64,000 bases of DNA from Amycolatopsis tolypomycina. Its GTDB lineage: Bacteria; Actinomycetota; Actinomycetes; Mycobacteriales; Pseudonocardiaceae. This document shows, one piece after another, positions 42,493-62,171 of the stretch. How positions within the stretch are numbered: the first letter of the stretch is position 1; each line of letters opens with the position of its first letter. A model generated the notes under the pieces. It saw nothing but the letters and a program-made list of their open reading frames with translations. It was not told the origin of the DNA and ran no database searches. The stretch lies in assembly GCF_900105945.1 (NCBI RefSeq), contig NZ_FNSO01000004.1, forward strand, positions 7,072,001 to 7,136,000, in the 5' to 3' direction. The position numbers and the translations under genes were made by a program.

Positions 42493-42966
42493 GTGACCAC
42501 CGTTTACGAGCCGGGCCGCGGTCCCGGCCCCGCCAAGCCCACCGAAGATGCGACGAGCCGGCTGCTGGGCGCCCACAGCCTGGGCGCGCTGGCCACCGTC
42601 AACCGCGGTGGCTTCCCGCACCTGTCCACGGTCGCCTACGCCTGGGATCCGGCGGAGCGGGTGGTGCGGATCGGGTCGACCGCGGGACGCGCGAAGGTGC
42701 GCCAGCTCGCCCGAGACCCGCACGCGTCGCTGTACGTCAGCAGCGACGACCACATGGCCTTCGCCGTCGCGGAGGGCGTCGCCGAGGTGTCGCCGGTCAG
42801 CTCGGTGCCCGGGGACGAGACCGGCCGGGCGCTGCTCGCGATGCAGGCGCCGTTCGAAGACCCCGAGGCCGAGGCCGCGTTCCTGCGGAACATGGTCGAA
42901 GACCGCCGCGTGGTGATCACGCTCCGGGTGGAACGGCTCTACGGCGGCGGTCTCGACCTCGGGTGA
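42493..42966 (+). CDS. Pyridoxamine-5'-phosphate-oxidase-fold protein, FDOR type
   Basis: The 157-residue split-barrel protein has LGAHSLGALATVNRGGFPHLSTVAYAWD, then VRIGSTAGRAKVRQLARDPHASLYVSSDD, the core pattern of PNPOx-like flavin/deazaflavin (F420) oxidoreductases. It probably reduces a small substrate using F420H2 or FMN. A GTG at 42469 would extend it by eight residues; 42493 fits the family length better. The stop lies four bases before a family-B repeat element. Confidence 0.82.
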   Translation: MTTVYEPGRGPGPAKPTEDATSRLLGAHSLGALATVNRGGFPHLSTVAYAWDPAERVVRIGSTAGRAKVRQLARDPHASLYVSSDDHMAFAVAEGVAEVSPVSSVPGDETGRALLAMQAPFEDPEAEAAFLRNMVEDRRVVITLRVERLYGGGLDLG

Positions 42967-42970
42967 CCAG

Positions 42971-43057
42971 AGCGCCCCAATGTGGCGTTGGTTGCGTCCA
43001 ACGCACCGAACGCCACATTGGGTGCGCTCAACGCACCGAACGCCACATTGGGGCGCT
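42971..43057. repeat. Family-B repeat element, two-unit form, between convergent genes
   Basis: AGCGCCCCAATGTGGCGTT (42971-42989) and its exact complement (43039-43057) are terminal inverted repeats. Between and overlapping them are two 30-bp units. Read on the minus strand they have the same order as the element at 60667-60845: left end, units, diverged last unit, right end. It fills the gap between the stops at 42966 and 43064. See 60667-60845 for the five-unit form. Confidence 0.9.
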
Positions 43058-43063
43058 TGAGGC

Positions 43064-44221
43064 TCAGCCCAGGGCGGTCAGCAGGTCGGCCACCAGGTCG
43101 CGGCCGTCTTCGATGCCGACCGAAAGGCGCAGCAGGTCGGCCGGGACCTGGAGGGTCGAGCCCGCGGTGCTCGCGTGGGTCATCTTGCCCGGGTGCTCGA
43201 TCAGCGACTCGATGCCGCCGAGCGACTCGGCGAGGATGAACAGCTTCGTGCGGCTCGCCACTTCCAGGGCCGCCGCCTCGCCGTCGACGTGGCTGAAGGA
43301 GACCATGCCGCCGAAGCGGCGCATCTGCTTCGCCGCCGTCTCGTGGCCAGGGTGCTCCGGCAGGCCCGGGTAGTAGACCTTCGCCACCTTGGGGTGCTTG
43401 ACCAGCGCCTGGACGATCTTCTCGGCGTTGTCGCTGTGGCGCTCCATGCGCAGGGCGAGGGTCTTGATGCCGCGAAGCGTCAGCCACGCGTCGAACGGCC
43501 CCGGCACCGCGCCCGCGGCGTTGCGCAGGTAGAAGAACTGCTCGCGCAGCTCGTCTTCGTTCGTGATGATCGCGCCGCCGACGACGTCGGAGTGGCCGCC
43601 GAGGTACTTCGTCGTCGAGTGCAGGACGATGTCCGCGCCCAGCGACAGCGGGTTCTGCAGGTACGGCGTCGCGAAGGTGTTGTCGACGACCAGGCGGGCG
43701 CCGGCGTCGTGCGCGACCCCGGCCAGCGCGGCGATGTCGGCGATGCCGAGCATCGGGTTGGTCGGCGACTCGCACCAGATGAGCTTGGTCTCGGGCCGGA
43801 TCGCGGCCCGCACCTCGTCGAGGTTCGCGAGGTCGGCGACGGTGTGCTCGACGCCCCACAGGCTGAGCACCTTGTCGATCAGGCGGAACGTGCCGCCGTA
43901 CGCGTCGTTGCCGAGCACGAGGTGGTCGCCGGGGCGGAGGGTACTGCGCAGCACCACGTCGGAGGCGGCCATGCCGGAGGCGAAGGCCAGCGCGTGGCGG
44001 CCGCCTTCCAGCGAGGCCAGCGCCTCTTCCAGCGCCGACCGGGTCGGGTTCGCGGTGCGCGAGTACTCGTAGTCGCCCTCGCGGGTCCCGCCCACGCCGT
44101 CCTGCGCGTAGGTCGAGGTCTGGTAGATCGGCACGATCACCGCGCCGGTGCGGGGGTCGGGCTGCTGACCGGCGTGGATCGCGCGGGTCTCGAAGCCCAG
44201 TTCGGAGTAGTCGTCCACCAT
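43064..44221 (-). CDS. metB: Cystathionine gamma-synthase
   Basis: The 385-residue protein is a Cys/Met-metabolism PLP enzyme. It has ETRAIHAGQQPDPRTGAVIVPIYQTSTYAQ at the start, SRTANPTRSALEEALASLEGG, the PLP lysine in LHSTTKYLGGHSD and a C-terminal SVGIEDGRDLVADL block. It makes cystathionine from an O-acyl-homoserine and cysteine. It corresponds to Rv1079 and lies near cbs, giving both directions of transsulphuration in one locus. The start is ATG at 44219-44221. Its stop is six bases from a repeat element. Confidence 0.94.
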   Translation of the reverse strand: MVDDYSELGFETRAIHAGQQPDPRTGAVIVPIYQTSTYAQDGVGGTREGDYEYSRTANPTRSALEEALASLEGGRHALAFASGMAASDVVLRSTLRPGDHLVLGNDAYGGTFRLIDKVLSLWGVEHTVADLANLDEVRAAIRPETKLIWCESPTNPMLGIADIAALAGVAHDAGARLVVDNTFATPYLQNPLSLGADIVLHSTTKYLGGHSDVVGGAIITNEDELREQFFYLRNAAGAVPGPFDAWLTLRGIKTLALRMERHSDNAEKIVQALVKHPKVAKVYYPGLPEHPGHETAAKQMRRFGGMVSFSHVDGEAAALEVASRTKLFILAESLGGIESLIEHPGKMTHASTAGSTLQVPADLLRLSVGIEDGRDLVADLLTALG

Positions 44222-59449: not shown

Positions 59450-60601
59450 ATGGTTCCTGAGCGCGACCCCGCCGCAACCGCCCTCAACGGCCTTCTCCCC
59501 CTCCGGCGTGAGTACACGCAGGCTTGGCACGGCTTCGACCGCAACGAGGTCCGGCAGTACCTCGACCACGTCGAAGCCCAGCTGCGCCGGGTGCTCAGCG
59601 AACGCGACGCCGCCGCCGCGCAGGCCGCCGCGGCGACCCGCGAGGTCGAATCCGTCCGGCAGCAGGTCGCGGCGCTCGAGGCGCGCATCGAGGAGCTCAA
59701 GAAGCCGCCGGAGCGGCTCGAGGACCTCGACGAGCGGATGCAGCGCACGGTGACGCTCGCGCAGGCCCGCGCCGACGAGATCATCAAGCGCGCCGAGGTG
59801 GCCGCGGAGAAGACGTGGGCGTCGTCGACCGAGGCGTCGACGAAGCTGCGTGAGCGGTACTCGAAGCTGGTCTCGGAGCTGGACAAGCAGGCCGACCTGC
59901 TGCACTCCGAGCACGAGGCGGCGCTGGCGGAAACGCGCGCCGAGGTGCAGCGGCTGACCGTCGAAGCGGCCCAGCGGCGCGAGCTGCTGGACAACGAGGC
60001 GGAGCGGAAGCGCCGGAAGGTCGAGCGCGAGTTCGAGGCGGCCCAGGCCGCCCAGAAGGCGGCGCTGGAGAAGCACATCGCCGACCAGCGCACGGCGAGC
60101 AAGAACCAGGCGGAGCGCCGCATCGCGGAGGCGACGGCCGAGGCGAAGCGGCGGCTCGACGAGGCGACGGCGGAGGCCAAGCGCCGTCTCGACGAGGCGA
60201 CGACCCAGGCGGCCCAGCGCACGACGGCGGCCAACCGCAAGGTCGAGCGGCTGGCGGAGATCCGCGAGCAGGCGCGCAAGAGCCTGGCGATGGCGGAGGA
60301 CATCCTCAACCGGAGCGAGACGCAGCTGGCGACGCTGCCGGAGGAAGCGGTGATCCCCCAGGCGTCGAAGCTGGTCGGCGGCGACACGGAGTCGGCGACC
60401 ACGCCGGCCGCGCCGGTGGTCCCGGTGGTGCAGCCGTCGATCCCGAAGTCGGCGGCTCCGAAGCCGGCACCGAAGCCGGCAGCGGCACCCAAGCCGGCTG
60501 CCGCGCCGAAGCCCGCGAACTCGAACGGCCCGGCAACCAAGCCCGCGAACGGCAACGGCGCCAAGCCGCTGTCGCCGTCGGGCAGCAAGCCGGGCAACTG
60601 A
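59450..60601 (+). CDS. DivIVA-like coiled-coil protein
   Basis: The 383-residue protein starts with a DivIVA-type N-terminal motif (AWHGFDRNEVRQYLDHVEAQLRRVL at about 25-49). A long coiled coil (about 50-300) is dominated by Glu/Arg/Ala heptads, with two exact EAKRRLDEATAEAKRRLDEAT repeats near 230-255. A disordered Pro/Ala/Lys tail closes it. In actinobacteria such proteins mark poles or septa and organise peptidoglycan synthesis, but this one is not Wag31 itself. The ATG at 59450 has no strong ribosome site. The stop is 65 bases before a family-B repeat. Confidence 0.82.
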   Translation: MVPERDPAATALNGLLPLRREYTQAWHGFDRNEVRQYLDHVEAQLRRVLSERDAAAAQAAAATREVESVRQQVAALEARIEELKKPPERLEDLDERMQRTVTLAQARADEIIKRAEVAAEKTWASSTEASTKLRERYSKLVSELDKQADLLHSEHEAALAETRAEVQRLTVEAAQRRELLDNEAERKRRKVEREFEAAQAAQKAALEKHIADQRTASKNQAERRIAEATAEAKRRLDEATAEAKRRLDEATTQAAQRTTAANRKVERLAEIREQARKSLAMAEDILNRSETQLATLPEEAVIPQASKLVGGDTESATTPAAPVVPVVQPSIPKSAAPKPAPKPAAAPKPAAAPKPANSNGPATKPANGNGAKPLSPSGSKPGN

Positions 60602-60666
60602 GCAGCCCCCGTTTTCCACGCTACCGGCGACCACCGACAGTTCCGGGCCCGCCGGCCGCGGCACTC

Positions 60667-60845
60667 AAGCGCCCCAATGTGGCGTTCGGTGCGTCCAGCG
60701 CACCCAATGTGGCGTTCGGTGCGTCCAGCGCACCCAATGTGGCGTTCGGTGCGTCCAGCGCACCCAATGTGGCGTTCGGTGCGTCCAGCGCACCCAATGT
60801 GGCGTTCGGTGCGTCAGACGCAACCAACGCCACATTGGGGCGCTT
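60667..60845. repeat. Family-B repeat element, five-unit form, between convergent genes
   Basis: AAGCGCCCCAATGTGGCGTT (60667-60686) and its exact complement (60826-60845) are 20-bp terminal inverted repeats. Between them are five 30-bp units (60673-60702, 60703-60732, 60733-60762, 60763-60792, 60793-60822). The first four are identical and the fifth differs at its end. Each unit can form a small GGTGCG-TCCAG-CGCACC hairpin. The right end touches the stop codon (60846-60848) of the leftward amidase. Open frames across it are multiples of the 30-bp unit and not genes. Confidence 0.93.
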
Positions 60846-62171
60846 TCAGTTGCGGGCCGTGCGGGGCCAGGGGTTGGCGGACTCCAGCTGGGCCGCCAAG
60901 CCGAGCAGCAGCGGCTCGCCGCCCGGGCGGGCCACCAGCTGCACCGACGTCGGCAGCCCGGACACCGCCGACCGGCCCACCGGGACCGTGATCGCCGGGT
61001 AGCCGGCGAAGTTCCACTGGCCCGTGAAGCCCGCCAGGCGCGTCGACGGCAGTACGTTCGCCAGCCAGCCGCGCTCGTGCCAGCGGCCCGCCTTCACCGG
61101 CCAGTGCGACAGCGTCGGCGTCATCAGCACCTCGTGCGACGCGAAGAACTCCTCCGCCCGGGCCACCCACCGGTCGCGGGTGCTCGCGCGGAGCAGGCCC
61201 AGCCGCTGGACCAGCCGTCCCGCTCGGACGTGTGCTCGCGTCCGGCGCTGCAGCCGGGAGACGTCGAAGGTGCGGGCCTGCTCGGCCGGGCCCGCCAGCC
61301 AGCGGGCCGTCATGCCCAGGACCATCGTCGCCGGGTAGCGGGGGGCCTCCGGGGACACCGTGTGGCCGGCCGCCGCCAGGAATCCCGCCGCCGTCGAGAC
61401 CGCCGCCACCAGCTCGCGCGGGACCGGGCTGTGCAGCAGCGGCACCGTTGTCGACATGCCGATGCGGACCGGTGACGGCGAAGGCACCGAAGCCAGCTCC
61501 GGGCGGGAGGCCAGCACCGACAACAGCAACGCCGTGTCCGCGACCGTCGTCGCCAGGGGGCCGTGCACCGACATGCCGAACCAGCCGCCTTCGGCCAGCA
61601 GGTCCGCGCCCGGCTTCAGGCCCACCAGGCCGCACATCGCCGCCGGGAGGCGGACCGAGCCCATGCCGTCCGAGCCGTGGGCCAGCGGGACCAGTCCCGC
61701 CGCCACCGCCGCCGCGCTGCCGCCGGACGAGCCGCCCGCCGCGTACGTCGGGTCCCAGGGGTTGCGGGCGATGCCGTCCGGGGTGTCGCTCATCGGCCAG
61801 ATGCACAGCTCAGGCACCCGCGTCAGCCCGACGATCACCGCGCCCGCCGCCCGCAGCCGCGTCGCGATGACGCCGTCCGCGTCCACCCGCGCCGACGCGC
61901 CCGCCAGCGAACCGTGCGACGCGTACTCGCCGGCCATCTCCGTGACGTCCTTGACCGCGACCGGCACCCCGGCCAGCGGCAGCGACGCCAGGTCCGGCCG
62001 CGCGGCGACCTCCGCGGCCTCCTTCAGCGCCTCCTCGGCGCGCACCCGCCGAAAGGCGCCGATGACGCCGTCCGCCGCGGCGATCCGCTCGAGAGCCTCC
62101 TCGGTGACCTGCACCGGATCGAGCTGCCCGGCGCGGACGGAAGCCGCGATTTCCCCTGCCGTGAGCACCAT
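60846..62171 (-). CDS. Amidase signature family hydrolase
   Basis: The 441-residue protein has the Ser-Ser-Lys triad of the amidase signature: Lys74 in PVAVKDVTEMA, the GGSSGGSAAAVAAGLVPLAHGSDGMGSVRLPA block with the cis-Ser at 148-149 and the nucleophile Ser172. The usual G-x-D-x-G-GSIRxPA is varied to SDGMGSVRLPA. It hydrolyses a carboxamide; the natural substrate is unclear. The ATG at 62169-62171 fits the family N-terminus. The 3' end abuts the family-B repeat. Confidence 0.88.
   Translation of the reverse strand: MVLTAGEIAASVRAGQLDPVQVTEEALERIAAADGVIGAFRRVRAEEALKEAAEVAARPDLASLPLAGVPVAVKDVTEMAGEYASHGSLAGASARVDADGVIATRLRAAGAVIVGLTRVPELCIWPMSDTPDGIARNPWDPTYAAGGSSGGSAAAVAAGLVPLAHGSDGMGSVRLPAAMCGLVGLKPGADLLAEGGWFGMSVHGPLATTVADTALLLSVLASRPELASVPSPSPVRIGMSTTVPLLHSPVPRELVAAVSTAAGFLAAAGHTVSPEAPRYPATMVLGMTARWLAGPAEQARTFDVSRLQRRTRAHVRAGRLVQRLGLLRASTRDRWVARAEEFFASHEVLMTPTLSHWPVKAGRWHERGWLANVLPSTRLAGFTGQWNFAGYPAITVPVGRSAVSGLPTSVQLVARPGGEPLLLGLAAQLESANPWPRTARN

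Follow-up and report, generated by a model that had tools for sequence, protein, structure and literature searches.

A dispersed BOX-like palindromic repeat in Amycolatopsis with fixed inverted ends, variable tandem units and a preference for gene 3' ends

The repeat element at 60667..60845 of the window, i.e., the whole stretch of 64,000 nucleotides of Amycolatopsis tolypomycina DNA that was analysed, is one of more than 100 related copies scattered in its genome. The members of this family share two conserved ends, differ in the number of tandem 30-bp units between them and lie preferentially between convergent genes, while a few of them are carried in frame inside protein genes. Copies are present at some orthologous sites and missing from others, and insertion at new places, i.e., mobility, is very probable. 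We favour, at roughly even confidence, the interpretation of a mobile, insertional, BOX-like palindromic repeat that serves as a 3'-end hairpin in Amycolatopsis, an actinobacterial genus known for antibiotics. A prior description of this repeat family was not found among the matches listed in searches of the open literature; subscription papers were mostly outside this search, and absence from it is no proof.

Anatomy and surroundings of the element

The element is built of five 30-bp units in direct orientation plus a single inverted core, enclosed by 20-bp perfect inverted ends. Its left end (60667..60686, plus strand), consisting of the outer stem and the first core, is the reverse complement of its right end (60826..60845, minus strand), which contains the sole inverted core. 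Four identical units, each with a 14-nt core and a mini-hairpin, occupy 60673..60792 (plus strand), and the fifth unit (60793..60822, plus strand) differs from them solely in the loop of its mini-hairpin. Read off the sequence, the mini-hairpin is of the type (G)TGCG-N5-CGCA(C) in every unit. The last direct core is paired with the single inverted core in a 47-nt terminal hairpin (60793..60839), which is present in every regular copy of the family. The initial annotation had described perfect terminal inverted repeats, four identical units plus a diverged one and a mini-hairpin in each unit, and all of this is borne out here. We likewise agree that the array is no CRISPR, since its 30-bp units stand head to tail without unique spacers, and that it is not an insertion sequence (IS).

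On the left, a DivIVA-domain gene (59450..60601, plus strand, PF05103) points toward the element and on the right, an amidase gene (60846..62171, minus strand, PF01425) adjoins it, so that the element lies between convergent genes. The amidase stop codon (60846-60848, minus strand) directly follows the last base of the element (60845), exactly as annotated. Within the window, the core 13-mer with at most 2 mismatches is found 9 times compared with 0.79 expected, which is far above chance. Folding of the window copy yields -130.6 and -110.3 kcal/mol for the two strands compared with about -72 and -69 in simple shuffles; judged by fold energy and placement, the copy is therefore a stable stem-loop at a gene 3' end, as expected for an intrinsic terminator. 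Between 60500 and 61000, no match to a U-tract terminator or a sigma-70-type promoter was found, and the right-end profile of the copies reads GCGCTTG, without a U tract after the stem. Assignment to a known RNA family was rejected, since the comparison yielded no more than four matches, each to a miRNA-precursor model and far under its gathering score.

A separate observation concerns the sequence left of the element. At 60618-60639 on the minus strand, the window contains TGTCGGTG-N8-TAGCGT, pointing left and antisense into the end of the DivIVA gene. We take this to fit the mycobacterial DNA-damage (PafBC / RecA-NDp) promoter motif. The pattern is unique within the window and, by reading, the segment around it is conserved in many relatives.

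Size, range and structure of the family

The exact 14-nt core CCCAATGTGGCGTT occurs 518 times in the 10.4-Mb genome (274 forward and 244 reverse; reversed control 0), and the sequence is thus spread across the genome rather than confined to the locus that was first annotated. Exact cores are present in 43 of 80 Amycolatopsis genomes including our own, which has the highest number; the other 79 contain between 0 and 322 each, and 37 of the 80 are without the exact core, a count in which variants are not all included. A collection scan gave 74 named loci, all of them from Amycolatopsis; having been picked by the exact hairpin pattern, they are uninformative on frequency. When variation inside was allowed, the 47-nt hairpin was identified in 8 of 297 genomes and 4 of 46 genera of the Pseudonocardiaceae (own included). 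Outside Amycolatopsis, its inner stem is mostly of another sequence, which is still largely self-complementary.

The pairing was examined in 68 distinct 47-nt hairpins, 60 from fetched loci and 8 from the family-wide hairpin search. In these, 94.7% of cells are paired, and changes on both sides of a pair are found in 26 cells compared with 8.0 in shuffles, indicating compensatory changes; position 12/36, for instance, occurs as GC, CG, AU and UA. Since the 60 hairpins were gathered by core similarity on both arms, these results support the pairing rather than prove it independently. Furthermore, positions 15/33 and 17/31 are frequently mismatched, which argues against simple selection for perfect pairing.

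In 690 kb of sequence from our genome, 43 clusters (4 of them partial) were found, with direct cores 30 bp apart and the inverted core 33 bp after the last direct one. A regular copy consists of N direct cores at 30-bp steps, with N ranging from 1 to 17, followed by one inverted core. The mode of N is 2, which applies to 55 of the 96 regular copies in our genome; 5 copies have N = 1, while N = 3, 4, 5, 6 and 7 are represented by 14, 8, 4, 4 and 2 copies, and N = 10, 12, 13 and 17 by one copy each. Irregular or truncated clusters occur as well (3 in the set used for the end profile; five without the usual pattern and two single cores among 103 clusters of our genome), and in one array (L255), a step measures 59 bp. 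Two half copies, located next to an IS or a gap, entered the count as separate clusters (L156, L221).

Units resemble each other more within a copy than between copies, with identical loops in 220 of 409 unit pairs within a copy compared with 2167 of 20094 between copies, as tandem expansion predicts. The two ends are conserved in 93 copies with at least 2 direct cores. Moreover, in 36 copies with at least 3 direct cores, the mean number of mismatches to the consensus is 0.14 for the first core and 0.06 for the inverted core compared with 0.78 for the other direct cores; the end profile and these core-drift statistics exclude single-core, irregular and locus-edge clusters, so that 96 of the 103 own clusters were kept for the latter. 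In the long arrays of L233 and L255, the inner cores share a mutation that has spread among them, and the ends are intact. With the first and the inverted core conserved and the others drifting, the ends seem to matter, and the inner units much less.

The initial annotation did not list a second family member at about 42970..43058 of the window, which fills the gap between two further convergent genes, a PNPOx_N-domain gene on the left (42493..42966, plus strand) and a gene for a Cys/Met metabolism PLP-dependent enzyme on the right (43064..44221, minus strand). Its cores are ordered + - -, corresponding to N = 2 when viewed on the opposite strand.

Two side observations were made on the family as a whole. 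The density of copies is uneven, with 4 clusters in 351 kb (G000:C3:320001-671400, where G000 is our genome; these represent 3 elements, one of them split by an IS) and 4 in 104 kb (G000:C4:7072001-7176000). Furthermore, reading of the loci revealed several copies of a second short repeat (TCCATCCATGCCCCCGCC... or parts of it, GGAGGCGCT...) nested in units of the element (L161:6950-7020; L148:6470-6540; L038; L111; L286).

Placement relative to genes

Of the 103 clusters of our genome, 52 lie between convergent genes, 38 in tandem gaps, 5 in divergent gaps and 6 inside genes, with 2 single cores making up the remainder. These clusters were drawn from stretches chosen mostly for holding copies, and genes were called with a caller made for this analysis and trained on our own genome, which may miss small genes; the cases termed divergent may hide such missed genes. 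For gaps of at least 20 bp in the same stretches, 49 of the 92 with an element are convergent compared with 59 of the 541 without one (Fisher p about 1e-18). Tandem copies also mostly lie behind genes, as 35 of the 38 are closer to the stop of the upstream gene than to the next start (sign test 7e-8). Their orientation relative to the upstream gene is unbiased (20 sense, 16 antisense), and a strand-specific RNA role was rejected on this ground.

Among convergent gaps, 43 of the 100 that lack the element contain another hairpin with a stem of at least 12 bp, compared with 4 of the 45 that have it. For tandem gaps, in which the leftover sequence is longer, the difference is slight: such hairpins occur in 3 of 37 gaps containing the element and in 61 of 531 lacking it. 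Divergent gaps without the element contain them in 7 of 214 cases. The shuffled controls amounted to 1 of 100 for convergent, 0 of 531 for tandem and 2 of 214 for divergent gaps. That few other hairpins are seen next to the element reflects, in part, how little sequence remains (median 32 bp in convergent gaps). Taken together, the placement and the counts of other hairpins suggest that the element behaves like one among several 3'-end hairpins.

Presence, absence and unit number at orthologous sites

All counts at orthologous sites include our own locus. At the second window site, 17 of 30 loci could be scored, the other 13 missing a flank. The element is complete in 5 of the 17 (one split by an IS-sized insertion), 1 contains a remnant, 1 another insertion, and 10 are near-empty, with 11-19 bp between the flank anchors, e.g., 3 bp between two stop codons in L299. 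Since these 10 loci offer no room for any hairpin, a terminator is not required there. At the first window site, where 27 loci were scored and 3 of 30 were unscorable, 12 loci carry the element with differing N and orientation, including L123 with an IS-sized insertion. In addition, L125 contains parts of the element around an IS-sized insertion, and 14 of the 27 are without the element according to our detector, several of which show remnants or another hairpin by reading.

Reading of the junctions at the L157 site revealed the element or a degenerate form of it in 7 of 30 loci and hairpins of other families in the remaining 23, and at the L169 site, our genome contains a different hairpin while two relatives (L087 and L038) contain the element. 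Unit number varies as well, with N = 5, 1 and 2 in L138, L045 and L096, respectively, at a site with flanks that are 88-95% identical. The presence, absence and change of N at orthologous sites mark the element as insertional and copy-variable, and the patterns indicate that copies come and go and that other hairpins occupy the same places, the direction of each gain or loss being inferred. The non-autonomous mobile repeat of variable copy number put forward in the initial annotation therefore agrees with the family's dispersal, its absence from near-empty junctions and the differences in N, and relatives do not share a constantly occupied site of constant N.

By reading, other near-perfect palindrome families (AGGGGCCGTCCC..., GTCGTGAGTG..., GGCACTTTCACGTGAAAGTGCC) were also noticed at the same convergent junctions (L264-L285, L122, L128, L169:17754-17836); these families may be mobile too.

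Variant swap between genomes

A one-base variant of the core, GTGGCCTT (CCTT), occurs once in our genome compared with 518 cores of the CGTT form, whereas the related genome G057 contains 340 CCTT and 53 CGTT cores. Other genomes are similarly skewed (CGTT/CCTT of 0/204 in G051, 51/0 in G029 and 94/0 in G041) or mixed (206/135 in G019), and the exact CCTT core is absent from 63 of 80 genomes. The difference extends to individual sites: at all five distinct sites common to both genomes in the stretches compared, with flanks 81-97% identical and only exact CGTT or CCTT cores scored, our genome has 19 CGTT and 0 CCTT cores, while G057 has 0 CGTT and 13 CCTT. In this comparison, three of our clusters were not projectable, and one copy of G057 has no equivalent in our genome. 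The sequences directly flanking the second window site are almost unchanged, although every arm differs and the inner orientation is reversed. To produce such a swap at shared sites, copies must either undergo gene conversion with one another or be replaced repeatedly in the same position.

Copies inside proteins

The common unit corresponds to 10 codons and, by hand translation, is open in all six frames; without a stop, copies can survive in frame in protein linkers. Within called genes, 15 copies were identified, 6 in our genome and 9 in relatives, and 14 of them are in one frame (PNVAFGAS... / ...APNATLG), with the copy in L211 in another. The 15 are not independent, as six lie on one contig of A. 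eburnea (where the Pfam assignment covers L083) and the copies in L209 and L077 look like one site. By Pfam, hosts include polyketide-synthase-type proteins (L209, L211, L215, L220 and L083), a class I (M) tRNA synthetase (L253), whose copy is close to the C-terminus, and a protein of dihydrolipoyl-acyltransferase type (P0001), where the copy is found between its lipoyl domain and its E3-binding domain. Several in-gene copies lie in interdomain linkers. The six copies in genes of the A. eburnea contig come right after GTNAH(V/A)I(L/V)E, which is presumably the KS-AT boundary of polyketide synthases.

For the acyltransferase linker, 30 loci including our own were compared: 4 contain the element, 2 a diverged repeat with a 10-residue period and 24 an Ala/Pro linker. 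The 19 loci scoring next after our own are all without a copy, which makes our copy look young, and a more distant group (L195, L196, L198) contains a similar copy in the identical position. The diverged 10-residue repeat (PKAALG.., PKATSV..) is located in L201 and L203 at the point that the element occupies elsewhere, and it is perhaps an old, decayed copy.

Search for signs of a transposition mechanism

Y1_Tnp (PF01797, RAYT) was detected in none of 80 Amycolatopsis genomes, while 5 of 14 control genomes were positive, and a REP/RAYT identity of the family is therefore out. In 96 copies, flank offsets of 3-15 and lengths of 2-9 revealed no consistent excess of a target-site duplication. The counts were scattered and low, the best of about 1350 combinations being 5 observed compared with 1.06 expected, and a MITE with a fixed target duplication was rejected, while duplications that have decayed or that vary could still exist in a few young copies. 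At the second window site, TGA is found on both sides, where it is also a stop codon.

Among the stretches read, the only IS-like insertions seen were insertions into copies, and reading revealed no transposon with matching ends. IS-sized insertions lie inside copies in L156, L123, L125 and L300; open reading frames in those of L156 and L123 match DDE_Tnp_4, and ends like those of these two insertions adjoin copies in L036 and L042. Copies of the element are thus targets of IS. The insertion in L156:6950-8000 is flanked by CATTG on both sides.

Comparison with known repeat families

By description, the element resembles pneumococcal BOX elements and Rickettsia palindromic elements (RPEs). Like BOX of Streptococcus pneumoniae (boxA - boxB n - boxC), as described in the accessible part of PMC3049150, the family combines distinct fixed ends with variable tandem inner units (96 regular copies in our genome, N from 1 to 17, one inverted core), and its copies are likewise dispersed, structured and enriched between convergent genes, with BOX-type repeats also inserting into one another. 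Unlike in BOX, the ends are mutual inverted repeats containing the core of the unit, and the unit is 30 bp long and open in all frames. Further differences are the GC-rich actinobacterial host, the copies in frame in genes and the wholesale difference in core variant between related genomes.

RPEs occur in intergenic regions as well as in frame within protein-coding genes (accessible text of PMC10969869 and PMC3733652), and such in-frame palindromic repeats are unusually frequent in Rickettsia, according to the same portion of PMC10969869. In-frame copies missing from orthologues were found here as well (15 in-gene copies; neither the element nor the diverged repeat in 24 of 30 acyltransferase linkers). 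However, RPEs are about 150 bp long, with no tandem-unit series mentioned in the accessible text (PMC10969869), whereas length varies here in steps of 30 bp, and just 6 of the 103 clusters of our genome are within called genes.

REP/REPIN sequences are also short, dispersed palindromes outside genes and targets of IS, as far as described in the available part of PMC1525189. In contrast to REP/REPIN with RAYT (Y1), our family is accompanied by no PF01797 match in 80 genomes, and its copies are longer and contain tandem units. By analogy, the pneumococcal SPRITE appears to be the closest idea of a mobile terminator: its copies are terminator-like dispersed hairpins near gene 3' ends, but in them a U-rich tract follows an 18-bp duplex (accessible part of PMC3049150), while here, the U tract is missing and tandem units are present. 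MITEs share the short length, the dispersal and the inverted ends (20-bp perfect terminal inverted repeats in the window copy), and differ from our family in that its 96 copies are without a consistent target-site duplication.

Possible function and alternative explanations

According to the interpretation that we favour, new copies would arrive at the 3' ends of genes, where an arrived copy would take over the role of a 3'-end hairpin, most likely by terminating transcription in both directions or by acting as a 3'-end roadblock, and would displace other hairpin families. The units of a copy would multiply or shrink via tandem slippage or unequal recombination while its two ends stay fixed, and whichever variant currently dominates the genome would overwrite existing copies. 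Transcription termination by the element is plausible, and the expanding terminator suggested in the initial annotation is circumstantial: the placement and the alternation with other 3'-end hairpins speak for it, and the lack of a U-tract terminator match speaks against it. The missing U tract, the unbiased orientation, the hairpin-less orthologous junctions and the weak contrast in tandem gaps count against a 3'-end function in general. The first three suit a serious, though less probable, competitor, a purely selfish mobile repeat without a transcription function, which is found behind genes and in linkers since selection has purged other insertions. The same convergent bias of pneumococcal BOX, RUP, SPRITE and IS is read as tolerance of selfish repeats in the accessible part of PMC3049150, and the 10 of 17 scored loci without any hairpin at the second window site, as well as the several in-gene copies in linkers between domains, fit this explanation. 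However, it does not account well for the other hairpin families at the same junctions in relatives (23 of 30 loci at the L157 site; L169 compared with L087 and L038) or for ends that are kept while inner units drift, and we prefer the mobile element acting as a 3'-end hairpin. Three further results count against this preferred interpretation: a mobilising gene was not identified, target duplications showed no consistent signal, and the hairpin is frequently mismatched at positions 15/33 and 17/31.

We consider it unlikely that a transposase-free element spreads and renews itself by hairpin-templated or single-strand recombination, copying itself into hairpins that already exist, be they older copies of its own or terminators of unrelated origin. 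If this were true, the terminator slots of the genome would be overwritten by the newest variant and linkers would occasionally gain the element in frame, amounting to a homing "mobile terminator". An origin without any mobility, in which ancient terminator hairpins expanded by slippage and were homogenised by gene conversion between copies, is improbable. While the tandem expansion within copies and the homogenised variants, seen at the five shared sites as well as in the counts over whole genomes, would be in line with it, the near-empty junctions, the acyltransferase copy missing from the 19 next-best loci and the copies in polyketide synthases are hard to explain without insertion, even if loss could still account for some single sites. 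Just as little credence is given to copies having spread as an array of binding sites, with the 14-bp core bound by a nucleoid or segregation protein. The conserved ends and the presence of the core in 4 of the family's 46 genera, outside the genus usually together with another inner stem, would agree with such an array, but it is difficult to reconcile with the 37 of 80 genus genomes without an exact core (variants not all counted), the changed core variant between related genomes and the uneven density (4 clusters, or 3 elements, in 351 kb compared with 4 in 104 kb).

Rickettsia-like in-frame repeats are found in an actinobacterial genus, where polyketide synthase genes and a lipoyl-domain acyltransferase contain them, and these in-frame copies represent a natural series of 10-residue linker insertions. 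Moreover, our genome and G057 constitute a pair in which the variant of the repeat is different at all five shared sites examined, and with such a pair, the movement and homogeneity of repeats without an evident transposase become a testable question.
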